Shown here: positions 5,033 through 16,721 of the stretch, one piece after another | Numbering within the stretch: position 1 is the stretch's first letter | Layout: every line of letters begins with the position of its first letter | Source of the DNA: Chitinophaga pinensis | GTDB taxonomy: Bacteria > Bacteroidota > Bacteroidia > CAMBQF01 | DNA: 34,344 bases | Direction: 5' to 3' | Assembly (NCBI GenBank): GCA_945869825.1 | Contig: CAMBQF010000016.1 | Location: 1 to 34,344 of the forward strand | Translations under genes and position numbers: made by a program | The notes under the pieces: generated by a model | Database searches by the model: none | Seen by the model: the letters and a program-made list of their open reading frames with translations, nothing else | What the model was told of the DNA's origin: nothing

Positions 5033-5503
5033 TTATTCTGGGTTGATTTGAATGGTAAAATCTTTACCTGTTTTAACGCATGCCTCTTTACAGGCCTGCC
5101 CGTCTACATTACCACTTATAACAAATTTGCTTTGCGCGTTAAATTTTATTGTCTGCTTAAAAACTACCGTGCCAGTATAGAAATGCTCATTGCTTTCCCA
5201 AATATCACTATACTGCTTTTTATATACTGGTTCTTCTACCTTGTCAACCAGTTCGTAGTTACTATTGGGCTTAAATGTAAACAGCAACGGGGTTGCACCT
5301 CCCAGCCCGTCTTTGCTCGGTGGGTTATCCTGCGAATAAAGGTGCCACTCATCTTCTATGGTGGCTTTAATAAGTAACTCCCCCTCGGTAGCACTGATTT
5401 TTTTATACTCAAAAGCCCATTTCACTGGGTCGTGCATCTGGGCATTTGCAGCGCCAAAAAACAGCACTAAAACTAACGTTATATATACGGGTATTTTCTT
5501 CAT
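5033..5503 (-). CDS. secreted free-standing DsbD N-terminal domain paralogue
   Basis: This 156-residue protein has a signal peptide (MKKIPVYITLVLVLFFGAANAQ) followed by one domain that is clearly a duplicate of the N-terminal domain of the adjacent DsbD. Both share EGELL-KATIE, WHLYSQ-NPPSKDG-GGA, YSD-WES and the DGQ-CK--C cysteine pair. It has no membrane core and no thioredoxin domain. It should be a soluble periplasmic protein able to exchange disulfides through its two cysteines, perhaps as an electron acceptor of DsbD. It lies 66 bases upstream of dsbD in the same direction and probably begins the operon. The tandem arrangement points to a local duplication. Confidence 0.88.
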   Translation of the reverse strand: MKKIPVYITLVLVLFFGAANAQMHDPVKWAFEYKKISATEGELLIKATIEDEWHLYSQDNPPSKDGLGGATPLLFTFKPNSNYELVDKVEEPVYKKQYSDIWESNEHFYTGTVVFKQTIKFNAQSKFVISGNVDGQACKEACVKTGKDFTIQINPE

Positions 5504-5562: not shown

Positions 5563-6303
5563 TTACTCCTCTACCTTATGGTTCAGGGTTTGCTCTGCAG
5601 TTCGTTTTATCAGATTTTGGGCTTCGTCTTTGCCAAGGTAACGGTCTATTACCCCATGCACCGCATATATAGCCGGAGTAAGCCCCACCGCTATTATCAG
5701 CTTAAACAGATAGCCCGTAAAGCCAATGGCTATAAATTGGTTAAAGGTCATCAGTTTATCGGCAGGTTTGTCGTAAAAATTAAACACATCGGGCAGGTAA
5801 AAAGCTATGCCCAATACAATAAAAGAATCTACCAGCTGCGATATTACTGTAGAACCTGTAGCCCGCAACCATAGCATTTTTCCACCCGTACGCTCTCTTA
5901 AAAACCAAAACACAAAAACATCAACCAACTGCCCTACTAAAAAGGCAGTAATACTACCCACAATTATCAATTGCGATTGCCCAAGTACCTTATTGTATTC
6001 ATAATCCTGCACGTTTGAGAATGGCGATGCAGGAACCTTCATAGAGAAAAATATTACCACAAAGGCATACGCAATTAACGCTGCCGTAAGTAACGACAGT
6101 TTACGTACCCCTGTTTTACCAAAGTACTCGTTTATTAAATCGGTAGTAATAAAAACTATAGGCCATGGTAATATGCCCATACTTAAGGTAAACGGCCCAA
6201 TGGTAATCAGCTTACTGCCAATAACCTCGGCCACCAGAGCGTTGGTAATAAATATCCCCGCCAGTATTATAAAAATAGAGTCCTTTCTTGAATTGGTAAT
6301 CAT
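5563..6303 (-). CDS. yhhQ: queuosine precursor transporter, YhhQ family
   Basis: This 246-residue inner-membrane protein belongs to the YhhQ/VUT family, which imports queuosine precursors (preQ0/preQ1) for tRNA wobble modification. Family signatures are the early VAEVIGSKL segment, the WPIVFITTDLINEYFGK loop, and the later GSTVISQLVDSFIVLGIAFYLP helix. About six hydrophobic helices are visible, and the length is usual for the family. The C-terminal tail (YLGKDEAQNLIKRTAEQTLNHKVEE) is a short cytoplasmic helix. The gene is 59 bases downstream of the DsbD-domain gene region boundary and 100 bases from the TPM gene, with no perfect promoter box seen, so its transcript boundaries are unclear. Confidence 0.9.
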   Translation of the reverse strand: MITNSRKDSIFIILAGIFITNALVAEVIGSKLITIGPFTLSMGILPWPIVFITTDLINEYFGKTGVRKLSLLTAALIAYAFVVIFFSMKVPASPFSNVQDYEYNKVLGQSQLIIVGSITAFLVGQLVDVFVFWFLRERTGGKMLWLRATGSTVISQLVDSFIVLGIAFYLPDVFNFYDKPADKLMTFNQFIAIGFTGYLFKLIIAVGLTPAIYAVHGVIDRYLGKDEAQNLIKRTAEQTLNHKVEE

Positions 6304-6403: not shown

Positions 6404-7231
6404 CTACCAGCTACCGCTGGCGCCACCGCCACCAAAGCTACCGCCACCAAAGCCGCCAAAACTGCTGCCGCCACCGCCGCCGCCCCATGAACCACCACCG
6501 CCGCCACCCCAAAATACAGGGCCCATGCCGCCGCTACGTAGGCCACCACCACCGCCACGGCCAAAAACAGATATCAATACTATTACACCTATAATTATCA
6601 ATATTATTACCCCAATGCCTGGCCCTTTGTTGCTGTCTTTAGCATCAGCCTGGTAGCGGCCGGCAACCATGTCTATTAATGAGTTTGTGGCTTTATCAAG
6701 CCCTTCGTAATAGTTTTTTTGTTTAAATGCAGGCTTTATGTCATTCTCTATAACACGTTTGGCAAGGCCATCGGTAACACGGTCTTCAAGGCCATAGCCT
6801 ACTTCAATATCAATTTTACGGTCATCTAACGCTACGAGAATAAGTATGCCGTTATTCTTATCTTTTTTGCCTATGCCCCACTGGCGCCCAATTTTCAGGG
6901 CATAATCCTCAATATCATAATTGCCGGTGGTTTTAATAGCTATTATGGCAAACTCTATAGAATTACTATCGTTAACAGCACGAAGCTTTTGTTCCAACTG
7001 GCTGTTTTCGTTAGTGCTAAGCATACCTGCAAAGTCGTTAACCATACGCGGCGGCGACAAAGGCTTAGGTATTTCGTTAGCGCCGATGGCATCTGCCTGA
7101 GAATCAACATCTGTGTTTACCCCGGCATTACCAGTACGTGTTTCTGCATGTGGCATAGAATCATTACGTCCACAGGCGTTAACAAACACCAGTAACAAAA
7201 ACGGAATAAAAAAGAGTAAATACCTGCGCAT
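6404..7231 (-). CDS. TPM-domain lipoprotein with Gly-rich C-terminus
   Basis: This 275-residue protein is of the YgcG type. It begins with a lipoprotein signal (FVNAC, Cys at 20), then has a TPM domain (TLP18.3/Psb32/MOLO-1 fold, about residues 55-180: MVNDFAGMLS, the WGIGKKDKNNGILILVA strand, GYGLED). A single transmembrane helix follows (GVIILIIIGVIVLISVFG, about 205-225), then an extremely Gly-rich tail ending GGGASGSW. Members of this family sit in the envelope, and their role is poorly known. Its ATG overlaps the stop of the upstream TPM gene (TAATG), so translation is coupled. It is the third gene of a lemA-TPM-TPM operon. Confidence 0.88.
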   Translation of the reverse strand: MRRYLLFFIPFLLLVFVNACGRNDSMPHAETRTGNAGVNTDVDSQADAIGANEIPKPLSPPRMVNDFAGMLSTNENSQLEQKLRAVNDSNSIEFAIIAIKTTGNYDIEDYALKIGRQWGIGKKDKNNGILILVALDDRKIDIEVGYGLEDRVTDGLAKRVIENDIKPAFKQKNYYEGLDKATNSLIDMVAGRYQADAKDSNKGPGIGVIILIIIGVIVLISVFGRGGGGGLRSGGMGPVFWGGGGGGSWGGGGGGSSFGGFGGGSFGGGGASGSW

Positions 7232-7678: not shown

Positions 7679-8269
7679 TTAGAATTTAACTGTCGGGGCT
7701 TTTTCAGCACCTGCATCAGCAGTAAACATAGCACGGGGTTCAAAACCGGTTATGCCTGCTATAATCTTACCTGGAAAGCGCATAACGGCACTGTTATATA
7801 GCTTTACAGCAGCGTTATAGTCGTTTCTCGATACATTTATCCTGTTCTCGGTCCTCGATAGCTCTGTCTGCAACTCTAAAAAGTTTGTATTAGCCTTTAA
7901 GTCAGGGTAGTTTTCTGACACTGCCAACAGGCTCTTTAATGCACCTGCCAAACCATTTTGTGCCGACTGGAATTTTTTCATGTTTTCTTCCGTCATATCG
8001 GCTGCATTAATATTAATGCTGGTTGCTTTAGCACGCGCCTCTGTTACAGCCGTTAAAGTGCTTTTTTCAAAGTCGGCATAGCCTTTTACAGTAGACACTA
8101 AATTAGGAATAAGGTCTAACCTGCGTTGATAAGCACTTTGCACATCAGCCCATTTCTGGTCAACAACCAACTGCTTATCAACCATGCCGTTGTATGACGA
8201 ACAGCCCCACAGGCCAAATATTAGAAAGAAGCCCACCAGGGCTGCTAAAATAATTACGTTTCTACTCAT
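7679..8269 (-). CDS. lemA: LemA family protein
   Basis: This 196-residue protein has an N-terminal hydrophobic anchor (NVIILAALVGFFLIFGLWGC) and the characteristic LemA coiled-coil body: WADVQSAYQRRLDLIPNLVSTVKGYADFE, ALKSLLAVSENYPDLKAN, and TENRINVSRNDYNAAVKLYN. The family is an envelope helical bundle of unclear function, and it is very often followed by TPM-domain genes, as here. The GCSSY after the hydrophobic stretch could be a lipobox, but most LemA proteins keep the helix as an anchor. It is the first gene of the lemA-TPM-TPM operon. No perfect promoter box was found in the 93 bases upstream. Confidence 0.93.
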   Translation of the reverse strand: MSRNVIILAALVGFFLIFGLWGCSSYNGMVDKQLVVDQKWADVQSAYQRRLDLIPNLVSTVKGYADFEKSTLTAVTEARAKATSININAADMTEENMKKFQSAQNGLAGALKSLLAVSENYPDLKANTNFLELQTELSRTENRINVSRNDYNAAVKLYNSAVMRFPGKIIAGITGFEPRAMFTADAGAEKAPTVKF

Positions 8270-9772: not shown

Positions 9773-10966
9773 TTAAGCCAGTTTGGTAACTAAACTTCCA
9801 CCAAAAATCTCCCCCCGCTCATCAACCGTAATATGGTTTATGCCGGGTGTTTTGCCTTTGTCTAACGTGCCTAATTGTTGCTTAAAGCCCAGGGCTTCGG
9901 CACCGTTCAGGGTAGCCCATTGTATCAGTTCAGCGGTAGGTATTCCGGGGAAGTTGGCTACTATCGTTTTCATCTCATCCAGAATAGAAAGGCTATCGTT
10001 AGATGCATAGCTATCCGTGCCCACCACAATTTTAGCGCCCATTTGGCGTAGCATAGGCACATCGGGCAGCTTATTTTCTATATACAAATTGGCATTGGGG
10101 CATAGTGCCCAATACATCAGCTTACCATAGTCGGTAGCCCATTGCACATCTTCTTTAGTGCTTACGGTATTATGCACCAATAGTATGCGGTTGCAATTGG
10201 GTAAATGCACTACGGTTGATGGCAGCGAGTTGAACCCCGTTGGCTTATAGGTACTTAAATCTAACCCAAACTTAGCCATTTGCTCGGCCACAGGGCCTGT
10301 GCCCGTGCGGAACAGTTCATTCTCGCCCTCGGTTTCCTGGTTATGGATAGAGATAACCCCATCGCGCAGGTAGTTATGCTCGGCTATCAGCTTTAATAGT
10401 TTGGTAGACAACGAGTAGGTTGCATGTGGGGTGATATTAGCCGGAGCACTGGGTAGCAATTCTTCCAGTTGGCGCAGCAGCGTTTCGCCATTGGCAAATA
10501 CTTCTTCGGCTTTGTCGGCATTCAACCCAAAAAGTTCTATAAACGTATGGTAGAGCATGTTGCGCTTAGCCTTTTGGGCAAAGGTAAAATCGCTATTGCT
10601 AATGTCGCCTACGGCTATTATGCCATTACGTAGCATTTCGTTTTCGGCATCTTCAATAGCGCCCAAAACCTCCTCATCGGCCTGCCATTTGCGCACCGCC
10701 ATCATCTCTTTAACAAAACCCGAAAGGCCTGTGTGCTTGGCTAGCTTCCCCTTTAGGTACGATAGCTCTAAATGGCAATGGGCATTAACGAACCCGGGGG
10801 TTAAAATACCCTCAAAGTGCTGCGCATTGGGGGCTGTAGCGGCATAGCCAACATCGCCCGGCCTAAGCAGGCTTACTATCCGTCCGTTATCTTCTGTTAT
10901 CAATACCCCCTTTTTAACAGGGGCTGTTGACACGGGATAAACATAATTGGCTGTTAAAAAGCGCAT
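9773..10966 (-). CDS. metal-dependent amidohydrolase (Atz/Trz-like deaminase family)
   Basis: This protein of 397 residues is a metal-dependent amidohydrolase. Visible candidate metal ligands are H63 and H65 (NAHCHLE), H208 with E211 (IHNQE), H265 (LVHNT) and D318 (GTDSYASND), the pattern of the Atz/Trz/cytosine-deaminase-like branch. The substrate cannot be read. An aminated purine derivative such as aminodeoxyfutalosine, or a guanine-like base, is possible. I chose the ATG at 10966 because the 44 extra residues of the longest frame would overlap rnpA on the other strand and are unlike the family. The start region overlaps the rnpA promoter. Confidence 0.85.
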   Translation of the reverse strand: MRFLTANYVYPVSTAPVKKGVLITEDNGRIVSLLRPGDVGYAATAPNAQHFEGILTPGFVNAHCHLELSYLKGKLAKHTGLSGFVKEMMAVRKWQADEEVLGAIEDAENEMLRNGIIAVGDISNSDFTFAQKAKRNMLYHTFIELFGLNADKAEEVFANGETLLRQLEELLPSAPANITPHATYSLSTKLLKLIAEHNYLRDGVISIHNQETEGENELFRTGTGPVAEQMAKFGLDLSTYKPTGFNSLPSTVVHLPNCNRILLVHNTVSTKEDVQWATDYGKLMYWALCPNANLYIENKLPDVPMLRQMGAKIVVGTDSYASNDSLSILDEMKTIVANFPGIPTAELIQWATLNGAEALGFKQQLGTLDKGKTPGINHITVDERGEIFGGSLVTKLA

Positions 10967-15224: not shown

Positions 15225-15698
15225 TTAAACTTTAATACTCCGCTTAATACTTTCTTCCAGCGATATAAGGGTTTCTGTACGTTCTATGCCCTCTATAGCC
15301 TGTATCTTCTCGTTTAGTACCTGGCGCAGGTGGTTGGTGTTTTTACATACTATTTTTAGGAATATGCTGTATTGGCCTGTGGTGTAGTAGGCTTCTACCA
15401 CCTCGGGTATCTGCTCCAGCTCTGTAATTACCTGGTTATATACCGAGCCTTTAAAAAGGTAAACGCCCAAAAAAGCGGTAAGGTCGTAGCCCAGTTTGGT
15501 ATGGTCTACCATTAAAACAGAGCATTTAACTATGCCTGCATCCTCCAGTTTTTTCATCCGCACATGGATAGTACCTGCCGAAACAATCAGTTTTTTGGCA
15601 ATTTCGGTGTAGGGCACCAGCGCATCGTCCATTAGTATGGCTAAAATCTGTCTGTCGAGGTTATCAATTTCTAAAATTTCATGCTTTTCAGGATGCAT
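15225..15698 (-). CDS. Lrp/AsnC family transcriptional regulator
   Basis: This 157-residue protein has the N-terminal helix-turn-helix of the Lrp/AsnC family (about 10-55: LDRQILAILMDDALVPYTEIAKKL, then VSAGTIHVRMKKLEDAGIV; each part is family-like) and a C-terminal RAM effector domain (about 70-150). Such proteins form octameric DNA-binding regulators that often respond to amino acids. A perfect TAnnTTTG box lies 18 bases upstream of the ATG. It is divergent from the small RNA gene, so the shared 100-base region could contain its binding sites. This is inference. Confidence 0.92.
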   Translation of the reverse strand: MHPEKHEILEIDNLDRQILAILMDDALVPYTEIAKKLIVSAGTIHVRMKKLEDAGIVKCSVLMVDHTKLGYDLTAFLGVYLFKGSVYNQVITELEQIPEVVEAYYTTGQYSIFLKIVCKNTNHLRQVLNEKIQAIEGIERTETLISLEESIKRSIKV

Positions 15699-15724: not shown

Positions 15725-15772
15725 CACTTTAAATATTTTATTCGTAATAATAACTTTATAACGTTAACTAAT

Positions 15773-15803
15773 TTGCATTTCATATGTTCTTATTATACAT
15801 TTG
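15773..15803 (+). promoter_or_regulatory. promoter of the small RNA gene
   Basis: TTG (15773-15775, within ATTTGC) is followed after 20 bases by TACATTTG (15796-15803), one of the best promoter matches in the window. Transcription should begin near 15810, about 20 bases before the folded RNA. Confidence 0.8.
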
Positions 15804-15830
15804 TAACAAGAAACAAACGTTCTTATATAC

Positions 15831-15977
15831 TGTGGGGTGATGAAACTATGGCAGACATGCCCTCCTGTCTCGGGGGTAGGGAGCTACGGGATAAACACAC
15901 GATAATGGGTTGACCACAAAATAATTCTATGTCGTGCGGCTAACCTCCCTGTGAAGGTTCGAACCCTTCCCCTACAG
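15831..15977 (+). ncRNA. tRNA-like small RNA with an oversized variable arm
   Basis: This 147-nt stretch has its own promoter and terminator and can be folded by eye into a tRNA plan. The acceptor stem is TGTGGGG (15831-15837) with CCCTACA (15970-15976), 7 bp including one G-U. The D stem is ATG/CAT (15840-15842, 15856-15858), around a Leu/Ser-like loop with GG and GCAGA. The anticodon stem is CCCTC/GGGGG (15860-15864, 15872-15876), with loop CTGTCTC and triplet GTC at 34-36. The T arm is GAAGG-TTCGAAC-CCTTC (15953-15969). The variable region (15877-15952) is 76 nt with stems AGGGAG/CTCCCT (15878-15883, 15945-15950) and CACGATA/TATGTCGTG-type pairing (15898-15904, 15930-15936). CTA, not CCA, follows the discriminator G. 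No normal tRNA has such an arm. A function in translation, decoy binding or regulation is open. Confidence 0.6.
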
Positions 15978-15991
15978 CTAACATTCGGAAA

Positions 15992-16023
15992 GCCCTTTAA
16001 GCACCTGCTTAAAGGGCCTTTTT
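15992..16023 (+). terminator. terminator of the small RNA gene
   Basis: GCCCTTTAAGCA (15992-16003) and TGCTTAAAGGGC (16006-16017) form a near-perfect long stem followed by CTTTTT. With the promoter at 15773-15803 it defines a primary transcript of about 210 nt. Confidence 0.93.
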
Positions 16024-16262
16024 ATACCCGCAAAGAATAATTGGGCAAAGACTTAGTAACCATGGTATTTAAAAAATGGCATATGTAGCTATGAAGCATC
16101 TTTGGCAAAACTCACGTTGAATCTGGTTACGGTAGGTTTTTATTTAATGAAACTCTGTTTTACAAATCAAATTGCTTCGCAATTTCTTAACATTAGATAA
16201 CTTTACAAGTCTACACAATTGCTTAATATTACTGTGCTTAATTTTTATTTACCGGTAGTATT
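16024..16262 (+). promoter_or_regulatory. upstream region of the Panacea gene with AATTGCTT boxes
   Basis: AAATTGC-TTC-GCAATTT (16169-16185) is a perfect 7-bp inverted repeat, and its AATTGCTT half recurs at 16217-16224. Each box contains a TTG that could act as a -33 element: 16172-16174 with TAACTTTA at 16198-16205, and 16219-16221 with TAATTTTT at 16239-16246. Both -7 boxes have a mismatch at the last base. Boxes over -33 elements would suit an autorepressor. The rest of this stretch shows no gene. Confidence 0.45.
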
Positions 16263-16721
16263 ATGGCTTACAAAGCGATTGAGATTGCCGCAGGGTTTAT
16301 CAGAAAAGGAAAAGCTGATAAAAAAGCATTTAGCCAAATGAAGTTGCAGTGCATGGTATATTATGCGCATGGCTATTATATGGCACTTACTAAAGAACCT
16401 CTTATTACTGATACCATTGAGGCATGGGAGGTTGGCCCATGTGTACAAAGTGTATATGGTTTGTATAGGCTTATAGACAGGCTGCCTACTGATGAGTGGC
16501 CCGAAGACAACCTTGATATAGAGTTTGAGCCCAAAGTAATGCAGGCTATTGAAGCAGCCTGGGAGGCATCTTTCCGATTAACGTCTGACCAGTTTATCAA
16601 ATGGGCTACTGCCAAAGGAACACCATGGGCAAAGGCTTATTCGCCTATCCAATGGACACTGAATATTGGCAATGAAAGCATTAAAGAATATTTTGAAAAA
16701 GAGGTGCTGAAACTGGCCTGA
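16263..16721 (+). CDS. Panacea (SocA-like/DUF4065) antitoxin-domain protein, no toxin beside it
   Basis: This 152-residue protein matches the Panacea domain: an N-terminal helix with the KLQCMVYYAHGYYMAL segment, then PLITDTIEAWEVGPCVQSVYGLY, a near-complete family signature. Known members (SocA, GepA, PanA) neutralise many unrelated toxins, including tRNA-modifying ToxSAS enzymes, or act as proteolytic adaptors. Such genes normally sit within bases of their toxin. Here the upstream neighbour is the small RNA gene, and downstream is the convergent AI-2E transporter gene ending 8 bases away, so no protein toxin is encoded in the operon. It may be a domesticated antitoxin or pair with a partner elsewhere. 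No signal peptide is seen. Confidence 0.88.
   Translation: MAYKAIEIAAGFIRKGKADKKAFSQMKLQCMVYYAHGYYMALTKEPLITDTIEAWEVGPCVQSVYGLYRLIDRLPTDEWPEDNLDIEFEPKVMQAIEAAWEASFRLTSDQFIKWATAKGTPWAKAYSPIQWTLNIGNESIKEYFEKEVLKLA

Follow-up and report, generated by a model that had tools for sequence, protein, structure and literature searches.

A tRNA-like RNA family of Bacteroidota as a probable non-decoding carrier for asparagine synthesis

Where AsnA and AsnB are lacking, asparagine can be synthesized on tRNA-Asn by AspRS and then GatCAB, with U1-A72 as the signal (PMC4206432). Aspartate identity is defined by G73, G34, U35, C36 and C38 (PMC9976931); amidation of Asp-tRNA requires U1-A72, whereas G1-C72 and U20a prevent it (PMC9976931, PMC4206432), and G1-C72 is reported to help tRNA-Asp sit in AspRS (PMC9976931). 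In E. coli, asnA is activated by AsnC, the product of the gene divergent from it, an effect that asparagine abolishes (PMC8707732, PMC4482635).

Here we describe a tRNA-like RNA encoded in a 34,344-nt stretch of Chitinophaga pinensis DNA (contig CAMBQF010000016.1), the whole of which we call the window. With the indirect pathway on tRNA-Asn (non-discriminating AspRS plus GatCAB, as in Bdellovibrio, Staphylococcus and Deinococcus/Thermus), the RNA would have the succession of AspRS and GatCAB in common, and hence the chemistry, together with U1-A72 and occurrence where AsnA and AsnB are lacking. That pathway, however, uses the decoding tRNA-Asn (GUU) as its carrier and a non-discriminating AspRS, whereas here the putative carrier is a separate, non-decoding RNA with GUC, the AspRS is seemingly discriminating, and asparagine would have to leave the RNA. 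The RNA resembles tRNA-Asp (GUC) in G73, G2-C71, G34 U35 C36 and C38, but U1-A72 replaces G1-C72, U20a is missing, A37 never occurs, the 3-bp D stem is Leu-like and the variable arm is long. The tRNA-Leu-type D arm and the long variable arm are shared with type II tRNAs (tRNA-Leu, tRNA-Ser), which differ in discriminator and anticodon and have a smaller variable arm without the second domain seen here. As in tRNA-Sec, N-1 can pair with G73 as an eighth acceptor pair (C-G or U-G in 89/102, A-G in 12), but the anticodon is GUC and not UCA, and the RNA lacks the tRNA-Sec combination of a UCA anticodon with 8+5 stems. The acceptor, T arm and stand-alone gene recall tmRNA, from which the RNA is distinguished by intact D and anticodon arms and by having neither a tag frame nor pseudoknots.

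Staphylococci use a non-translating tRNA-Gly in cell-wall synthesis, likewise a tRNA-like RNA with a biosynthetic job outside translation; its amino acid, enzyme partners and fold are different, and it involves no amidation step. To our knowledge, no RNA is known whose dedicated function, apart from translation, is the production of a free amino acid. A literature search covering openly licensed papers, and thus weak as evidence, found no description of the present RNA. The staphylococcal cell-wall tRNA-Gly is nevertheless a precedent for a non-decoding tRNA in biosynthesis, so that on a stricter view the present class would belong to a known kind.

The RNA gene and its fold

The locus comprises the following features.

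15225–15698, minus strand: AsnC-type regulator gene, divergent, 131 bp from the tRNA-like RNA
15772–15803, plus strand: Bacteroidota-type promoter (TTTG at 15772–15775, a 20-nt spacer, TACATTTG at 15796–15803)
15830–15977, plus strand: tRNA-like RNA core from N-1 to G73, 148 nt; covariance-model match of 158 bits, about 200 distinct homologues
15831–15837, plus strand: acceptor stem 5' strand (U1 G2 U3...), partner of 15970–15976
15840–15858, plus strand: D arm; 3-bp stem ATG/CAT, loop with G18 G19 (GGCAG, without U20a)
15860–15876, plus strand: anticodon arm, CCCTC-CTGTCTC-GGGGG, supported by loop tallies and stem covariation
15877–15951, plus strand: variable region, 75 nt; basal 5-bp stem TAGGG/CCCTG, covarying
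within 15877–15951, plus strand: inner parts of the variable region; internal loop GGATAAA / GCTAAC and a distal hairpin variable in sequence and length
15953–15969, plus strand: T arm, GAAGG-TTCGAAC-CCTTC
15970–15978, plus strand: acceptor 3' strand CCCTACA, then G73 (15977) and C74 (15978)
15992–16027, plus strand: intrinsic terminator; in most relatives the last copy is likewise followed by one

The initial annotation had described a free-standing transcript with a tRNA fold outside any listed class, bounded by a near-consensus promoter and a strong terminator. The promoter, the terminator at 15992–16017 and the misses of ARAGORN and Rfam all agree with this description, except that the promoter type was re-read as Bacteroidota TTTG-N20-TAnnTTTG, which we take to be the consensus of that phylum and which was applied to 15772–15803. 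The ARAGORN and Rfam runs that it had proposed found nothing at the locus: ARAGORN made 0 calls at the tRNA-like RNA in the window, Rfam (RF00005 and RF00023 included) gave no match to it, and RF00005 likewise gave none for the family copies in L018, L022, L071 and L244. The acceptor, D, anticodon and T arms lie where they had been drawn, and the anticodon GTC with U37 was read correctly. The variable region is as large as claimed but measures 75 nt rather than 76 nt, and the arm that had received the emphasis is the most variable part of the RNA, not its defining feature. CTA does replace CCA, but this is no anomaly, since ordinary tRNA genes here encode C74 and few encode more. Across the tRNA genes of the source genome (G000, L275–L298), C74 is encoded and C75 A76 mostly are not; single-C templating seems to be the rule there.

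Analysis of pairing in 106 distinct sequences revealed 97.4% of cells paired over five helices and two-sided changes in 15 of the 26 pairs; none of the 500 shuffles reached the observed pairing and slid registers were only 53–67% paired, the score being somewhat favoured because the alignment had been fitted to the tested structure. Compensatory changes are present among homologues in the acceptor, D and T arms, whose lack of them the initial annotation had named as the finding that would speak against its fold, and covariation backs all five helices. The D stem occurs as ATG/CAT, GTG/CAC, TTG/CAA and ACG/CGT, and the anticodon stem as CCCTC/GGGGG, CCTCC/GGTGG, CCCGC/GCGGG and CCGCC/GGCGG. The distal variable stem differs in sequence by lineage, with 3.98 of 5 pairs formed versus 2.20 when partners were exchanged. 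Single-sequence folding gave a perfect cloverleaf for the short phage form described below; for the window RNA it was not significant (z -0.68) and missed the D arm, so the proof of the fold is comparative.

Two other structural ideas were considered. A group I or other intron in tRNA-Leu was rejected because the insert is not long enough and covariation extends to the anticodon arm. A possible pairing between GUCUC in the anticodon loop and the conserved GGGAY in the variable arm can be drawn by eye for some members, but fails in others, namely the G37 members, and has no counterpart in the short phage forms.

Distribution of the family in genomes and phages

In a DNA search of 40 genomes, the RNA turned up in the source genome and in six more, of which two belong to its genus and four to different families. 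Seven sequences were used to build a covariance model, which was then run on 396 Bacteroidia genomes and detected the family in 73 of those sampled, with a clear gap in score between family members (74–158 bits) and ordinary type II tRNAs, which reach about 61 bits at most. After named genomes were added, the distinct members numbered 198, and the hosts comprised Mucilaginibacter, Pedobacter, Chitinophaga, Niabella, Algoriphagus, Cyclobacterium, Echinicola, Fulvivirga, Neolewinella, Portibacter and others. One member lies in an Ignavibacteriales MAG contig (L118:3130–3240), outside the class Bacteroidia, where a binning error is possible. Many loci contain two or three tandem copies, and several of these sets have one promoter on the 5' side and one terminator on the 3' side, in the manner of a tRNA operon. 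The whole RNA measures between about 93 and 211 nt, and the distal variable arm accounts for almost all of the difference.

Members were also found by pattern search on 38 IMG/VR viral contigs, many of them within tRNA arrays of up to 24 tRNAs; blastn of phage and plasmid record collections gave no match to the RNA. Several of the phage arrays also hold a normal tRNA-Asp, indicating that the RNA is no stand-in for it, and a true tmRNA stands beside the RNA in some phage contigs (L233, L245, L256). Short members of 93–95 nt occur in phages (L244:10608–10701, L251:2181–2274, L254:2630–2723, L235:7106–7198 and similar ones); these have a variable arm of tRNA-Ser size with a GAAA loop, and their commonest form has A1-U72, not U1-A72. 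ARAGORN names them tRNA-Asp, the sole exception to its misses; thus tRNA-Asp annotations of phages in databases may hide further family members.

A second class of odd RNAs was noticed in the phages, in which near-constant tRNA ends, TAGTCAGG-TG-GCG-AAATTGGTAGA-CGC ... TACAGGTTCGAATCCTGTCCTGACTA, surround differing inserts. The insert varies in length, an anticodon arm is not evident, and there are several per phage, on the minus strand (L237:5130–5277, 6143–6263, 6478–6617 and 7683–7831; L257:5065–5186 and 5270–5413; L239:4588–4707 and 9980–10113) and on the plus strand (L240:4906–5049 and 5865–5973; L256:3169–3298). They resemble tRNA-capped small RNAs, and one weakly reaches the Rfam tRNA threshold.

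Identity elements, regulator neighbour and co-occurring enzymes

Comparison of the bacterial members revealed that U1-A72 and G2-C71 (102/102 each), C74 (107/107) and U35 with C36 (101/101) never vary, and that G73 (101/102), G34 (96/101) and C38 (99/101) seldom do. Position 37 is U in 81, G in 10, C in 10 and A in 0, and position 33 is U in 86, G in 11 and C in 4; the family does not follow the rule of U33 and purine 37 of decoding tRNAs. The AspRS identity set is present throughout the family apart from 5/101 members without G34, and the GatCAB carrier features, U1-A72 and no U20a, are likewise present, with the A1-U72 short phage forms as the exception. In the source genome, whose own tRNAs were taken from the RF00005 search, tRNA-Asp has G1-C72, U20a and A37, the opposite of the RNA at each point, and tRNA-Asn has U1-A72, yet with U20a. 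On its sequence, the RNA is a chimera that joins an Asp anticodon loop to an Asn-type acceptor end and leaves the decoding-critical positions free. G34 is lost (loop CTCTCTC or CTTTCTC) in G171 and G319 (L082, L085) and in G285 and G353 (L063, L077).

Upstream of the RNA, TAnnTTTG occurred within 90 nt in 104/153 distinct loci versus 6% of shuffles. A further motif, GTTCTT (15819–15824 in the window), was found within 90 nt upstream in 59/153 distinct loci, where 2% were expected from shuffles; it lies mostly just 5' of the RNA and may belong to an AsnC site or to the 5' leader.

The sole neighbour that recurs across many families is a divergent Lrp/AsnC gene. It adjoins the RNA in 53/79 and 49/72 loci with enough upstream sequence, at a median gap of 162 bp in the testable loci, and about one-third of RNA loci have no adjacent AsnC. 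All adjacent AsnC-type proteins (102/102) score higher against E. coli AsnC than against Lrp; the protein in the window reached 185 bits with NCBIfam PRK11179 'transcriptional regulator AsnC' (cut-off 227) and 49 bits with Lrp. The divergent placement beside a gene for an AsnC-type activator is common to E. coli asnA/asnC, although the target here is an RNA gene and not an enzyme gene; the RNA gene holds the place beside AsnC that asnA holds beside asnC. Downstream, window positions 16263–16721 encode a SocA/Panacea-domain antitoxin-like protein, which is not among the conserved neighbours.

To relate the RNA to asparagine and amidation enzymes, we compared genomes with and without it, taking GatB as a stand-in for the GatCAB complex; only genomes with GlnRS are informative, since GatCAB could otherwise serve tRNA-Gln. 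Among these, GatB was present in 33/33 genomes with the RNA versus 0/16 without it (Fisher p 3e-13, in which kinship is ignored and independence therefore overstated by related genomes). In genomes without GlnRS, GatB was present in 14/14 with the RNA and 15/16 without it; taken together, the tallies split by GlnRS indicate that GatB is retained in genomes that lack GlnRS or have the RNA. Overall, GatB was detected in 73/74 genomes with the RNA, with no match in the fragmented genome G332.

Canonical AsnB, searched with that of G041 (560 aa), was found in 0/74 genomes with the RNA versus 12/68 without it. TIGR01536 was dropped as a test for asparagine synthetase because it also draws several paralogues of 590–700 aa per genome; these AsnB-like proteins may include a working synthetase. 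In one family (f40), 14 genomes with the RNA have GatB and no AsnB, and 3 without the RNA have AsnB and no GatB; in another (f2), GatB was found in 7/8 genomes with the RNA and AsnB in none, and the RNA-less G380 has AsnB and no GatB. These contrasts recur in separate families, kinship being ignored. AsnA was found in 1/33 genomes with the RNA (G171, whose RNA has C34 instead of G34) and also in 2 without it; the loss of G34 and the presence of AsnA suggest that the RNA in G171 may be decaying or re-purposed. AsnRS was present in 60/60 genomes tested. Many genomes with neither the RNA nor GlnRS are also without canonical AsnB; G016, G028, G074 and G142, which have no RNA, have no canonical AsnB, and AsnA was tested in them only in part.

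Among 70 AspRS compared, from genomes with or without the RNA, the position of E. coli L30 is non-His and the second site is nearly always Lys; the residues at the two sites resemble those of E. coli and are never His/Gly. They are the sites of a residue rule for discriminating AspRS reportedly given by Bernard et al. in 2006. The anticodon domain is alike in genomes with and without GatB in the same 70. The AspRS of GatB-less genomes must discriminate, because without GatB a non-discriminating enzyme would be harmful, and the AspRS of genomes with the RNA looks discriminating as well. Such an enzyme would not put Asp on tRNA-Asn, hence the need for a GUC-bearing carrier.

Proposed role and alternatives

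The identity elements and the associations with GatB, AsnB and AsnC point to a carrier for asparagine synthesis, and we hold it likely, judging from comparative sequence data, that the RNA is a dedicated non-decoding tRNA with this role. We infer a course in which a precursor would be transcribed from its own promoter, probably switched on by the AsnC of the divergent gene when asparagine is scarce, and would be processed in the fashion of a tRNA, with CCA added. The discriminating AspRS, unable to charge tRNA-Asn, would load the RNA with aspartate by virtue of its Asp anticodon loop and G73; GatCAB would turn the RNA-borne Asp into Asn, as U1-A72 is present and the tRNA-Asp antideterminants G1-C72 and U20a are absent. 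The Asn-RNA would have to stay off the ribosome, as otherwise Asn would enter at Asp codons, and positions 33 and 37, which are unsuited to decoding, together with the large variable arm, suggest that it does. Asparagine would then be freed as the free amino acid and put on tRNA-Asn by AsnRS. Release is the weakest point of the proposal; it may occur by spontaneous or assisted hydrolysis, and we know of no enzyme that releases Asn from such an RNA. U1-A72 may also slow charging, because G1-C72 reportedly favours the seating of tRNA-Asp in AspRS, and AspRS, being a class II enzyme, may be impeded by so long a variable arm. The members without G34, the A1-U72 phage form, AsnA in G171 and the fragmented G332 with no GatB match count against the carrier role, as do the one-third or so of loci with no AsnC alongside and the many genomes with neither the RNA nor GlnRS in which canonical AsnB is missing too.

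Amidation of Asp to Asn on the RNA could instead be followed by transfer of the amino acid to a non-ribosomal acceptor such as a lipid, a peptide or the cell wall. This would use the same identity elements and entail the same link to GatB, and the non-translating cell-wall tRNAs of staphylococci are a precedent; we nevertheless regard it as unlikely, because no conserved transferase gene lies alongside, AsnC being the only recurrent neighbour over many families, because mutual exclusion with asparagine synthetases fits a supply of free Asn better, and because phages carry the RNA among tRNAs.

A working decoding tRNA for GAC/GAU, inserting Asp or, once amidated, Asn as programmed mistranslation, would account for the full tRNA fold, the D and T loops, the GUC anticodon, the place in phage tRNA arrays and the naming of the short phage forms as tRNA-Asp by ARAGORN. 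However, A never occurs at position 37 and U33 is not conserved, which makes an ordinary decoder improbable, as the statement that this is not a normal tRNA had anticipated; normal tRNA-Asp is present in the source genome and in several phage arrays, the variable arm is large, and amidation would give Asp-to-Asn errors. We give this reading very little credence.

Scarcely more can be said for an uncharged regulator or scaffold, acting as decoy or sensor for AspRS or GatCAB or in a transamidosome-like assembly. The conserved internal loop GGATAAA/GCTAAC could bind a protein, and the AsnC neighbour would suit a regulator, but GatCAB would be left without work in GlnRS-containing genomes, where it has no other evident substrate because tRNA-Gln and tRNA-Asn have their own synthetases, and the RNA retains the G73-C74 3' end of functional tRNA genes. 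The initial annotation, while rightly excluding tmRNA itself, had offered a relative of tmRNA, a decoy for RNase P or a regulator of charging; this reading can draw on the acceptor and T arm that the RNA has in common with tmRNA but has next to no probability, given that RF00023 found no match in the window, no tag-coding region was found, the full D stem and anticodon arm covary, the RNA co-resides with true tmRNA in phage contigs, and GUC, C38 and G73 form the aspartate set and U1-A72 the amidotransferase pair.

Returning to the carrier for asparagine synthesis, we consider a broader statement to be fairly probable, if held a little less firmly than the role itself: that many Bacteroidota would rely on this widespread class of non-decoding tRNA, driven by AsnC, as their only means of making asparagine, and that phages would have borrowed it. 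If so, a non-coding RNA would replace a metabolic enzyme gene, with AspRS, GatCAB, AsnRS and one special tRNA together yielding free asparagine. This would explain why GatCAB is retained in Bacteroidota that have both GlnRS and AsnRS, and how asparagine is supplied without AsnA or AsnB. The RNA would also provide a natural chimera, of Asp anticodon and Asn acceptor end, for the study of tRNA identity rules, and would bring to light an RNA regulated by AsnC and a new RNA carried by phages; it would represent a tRNA-based metabolism uncoupled from translation.
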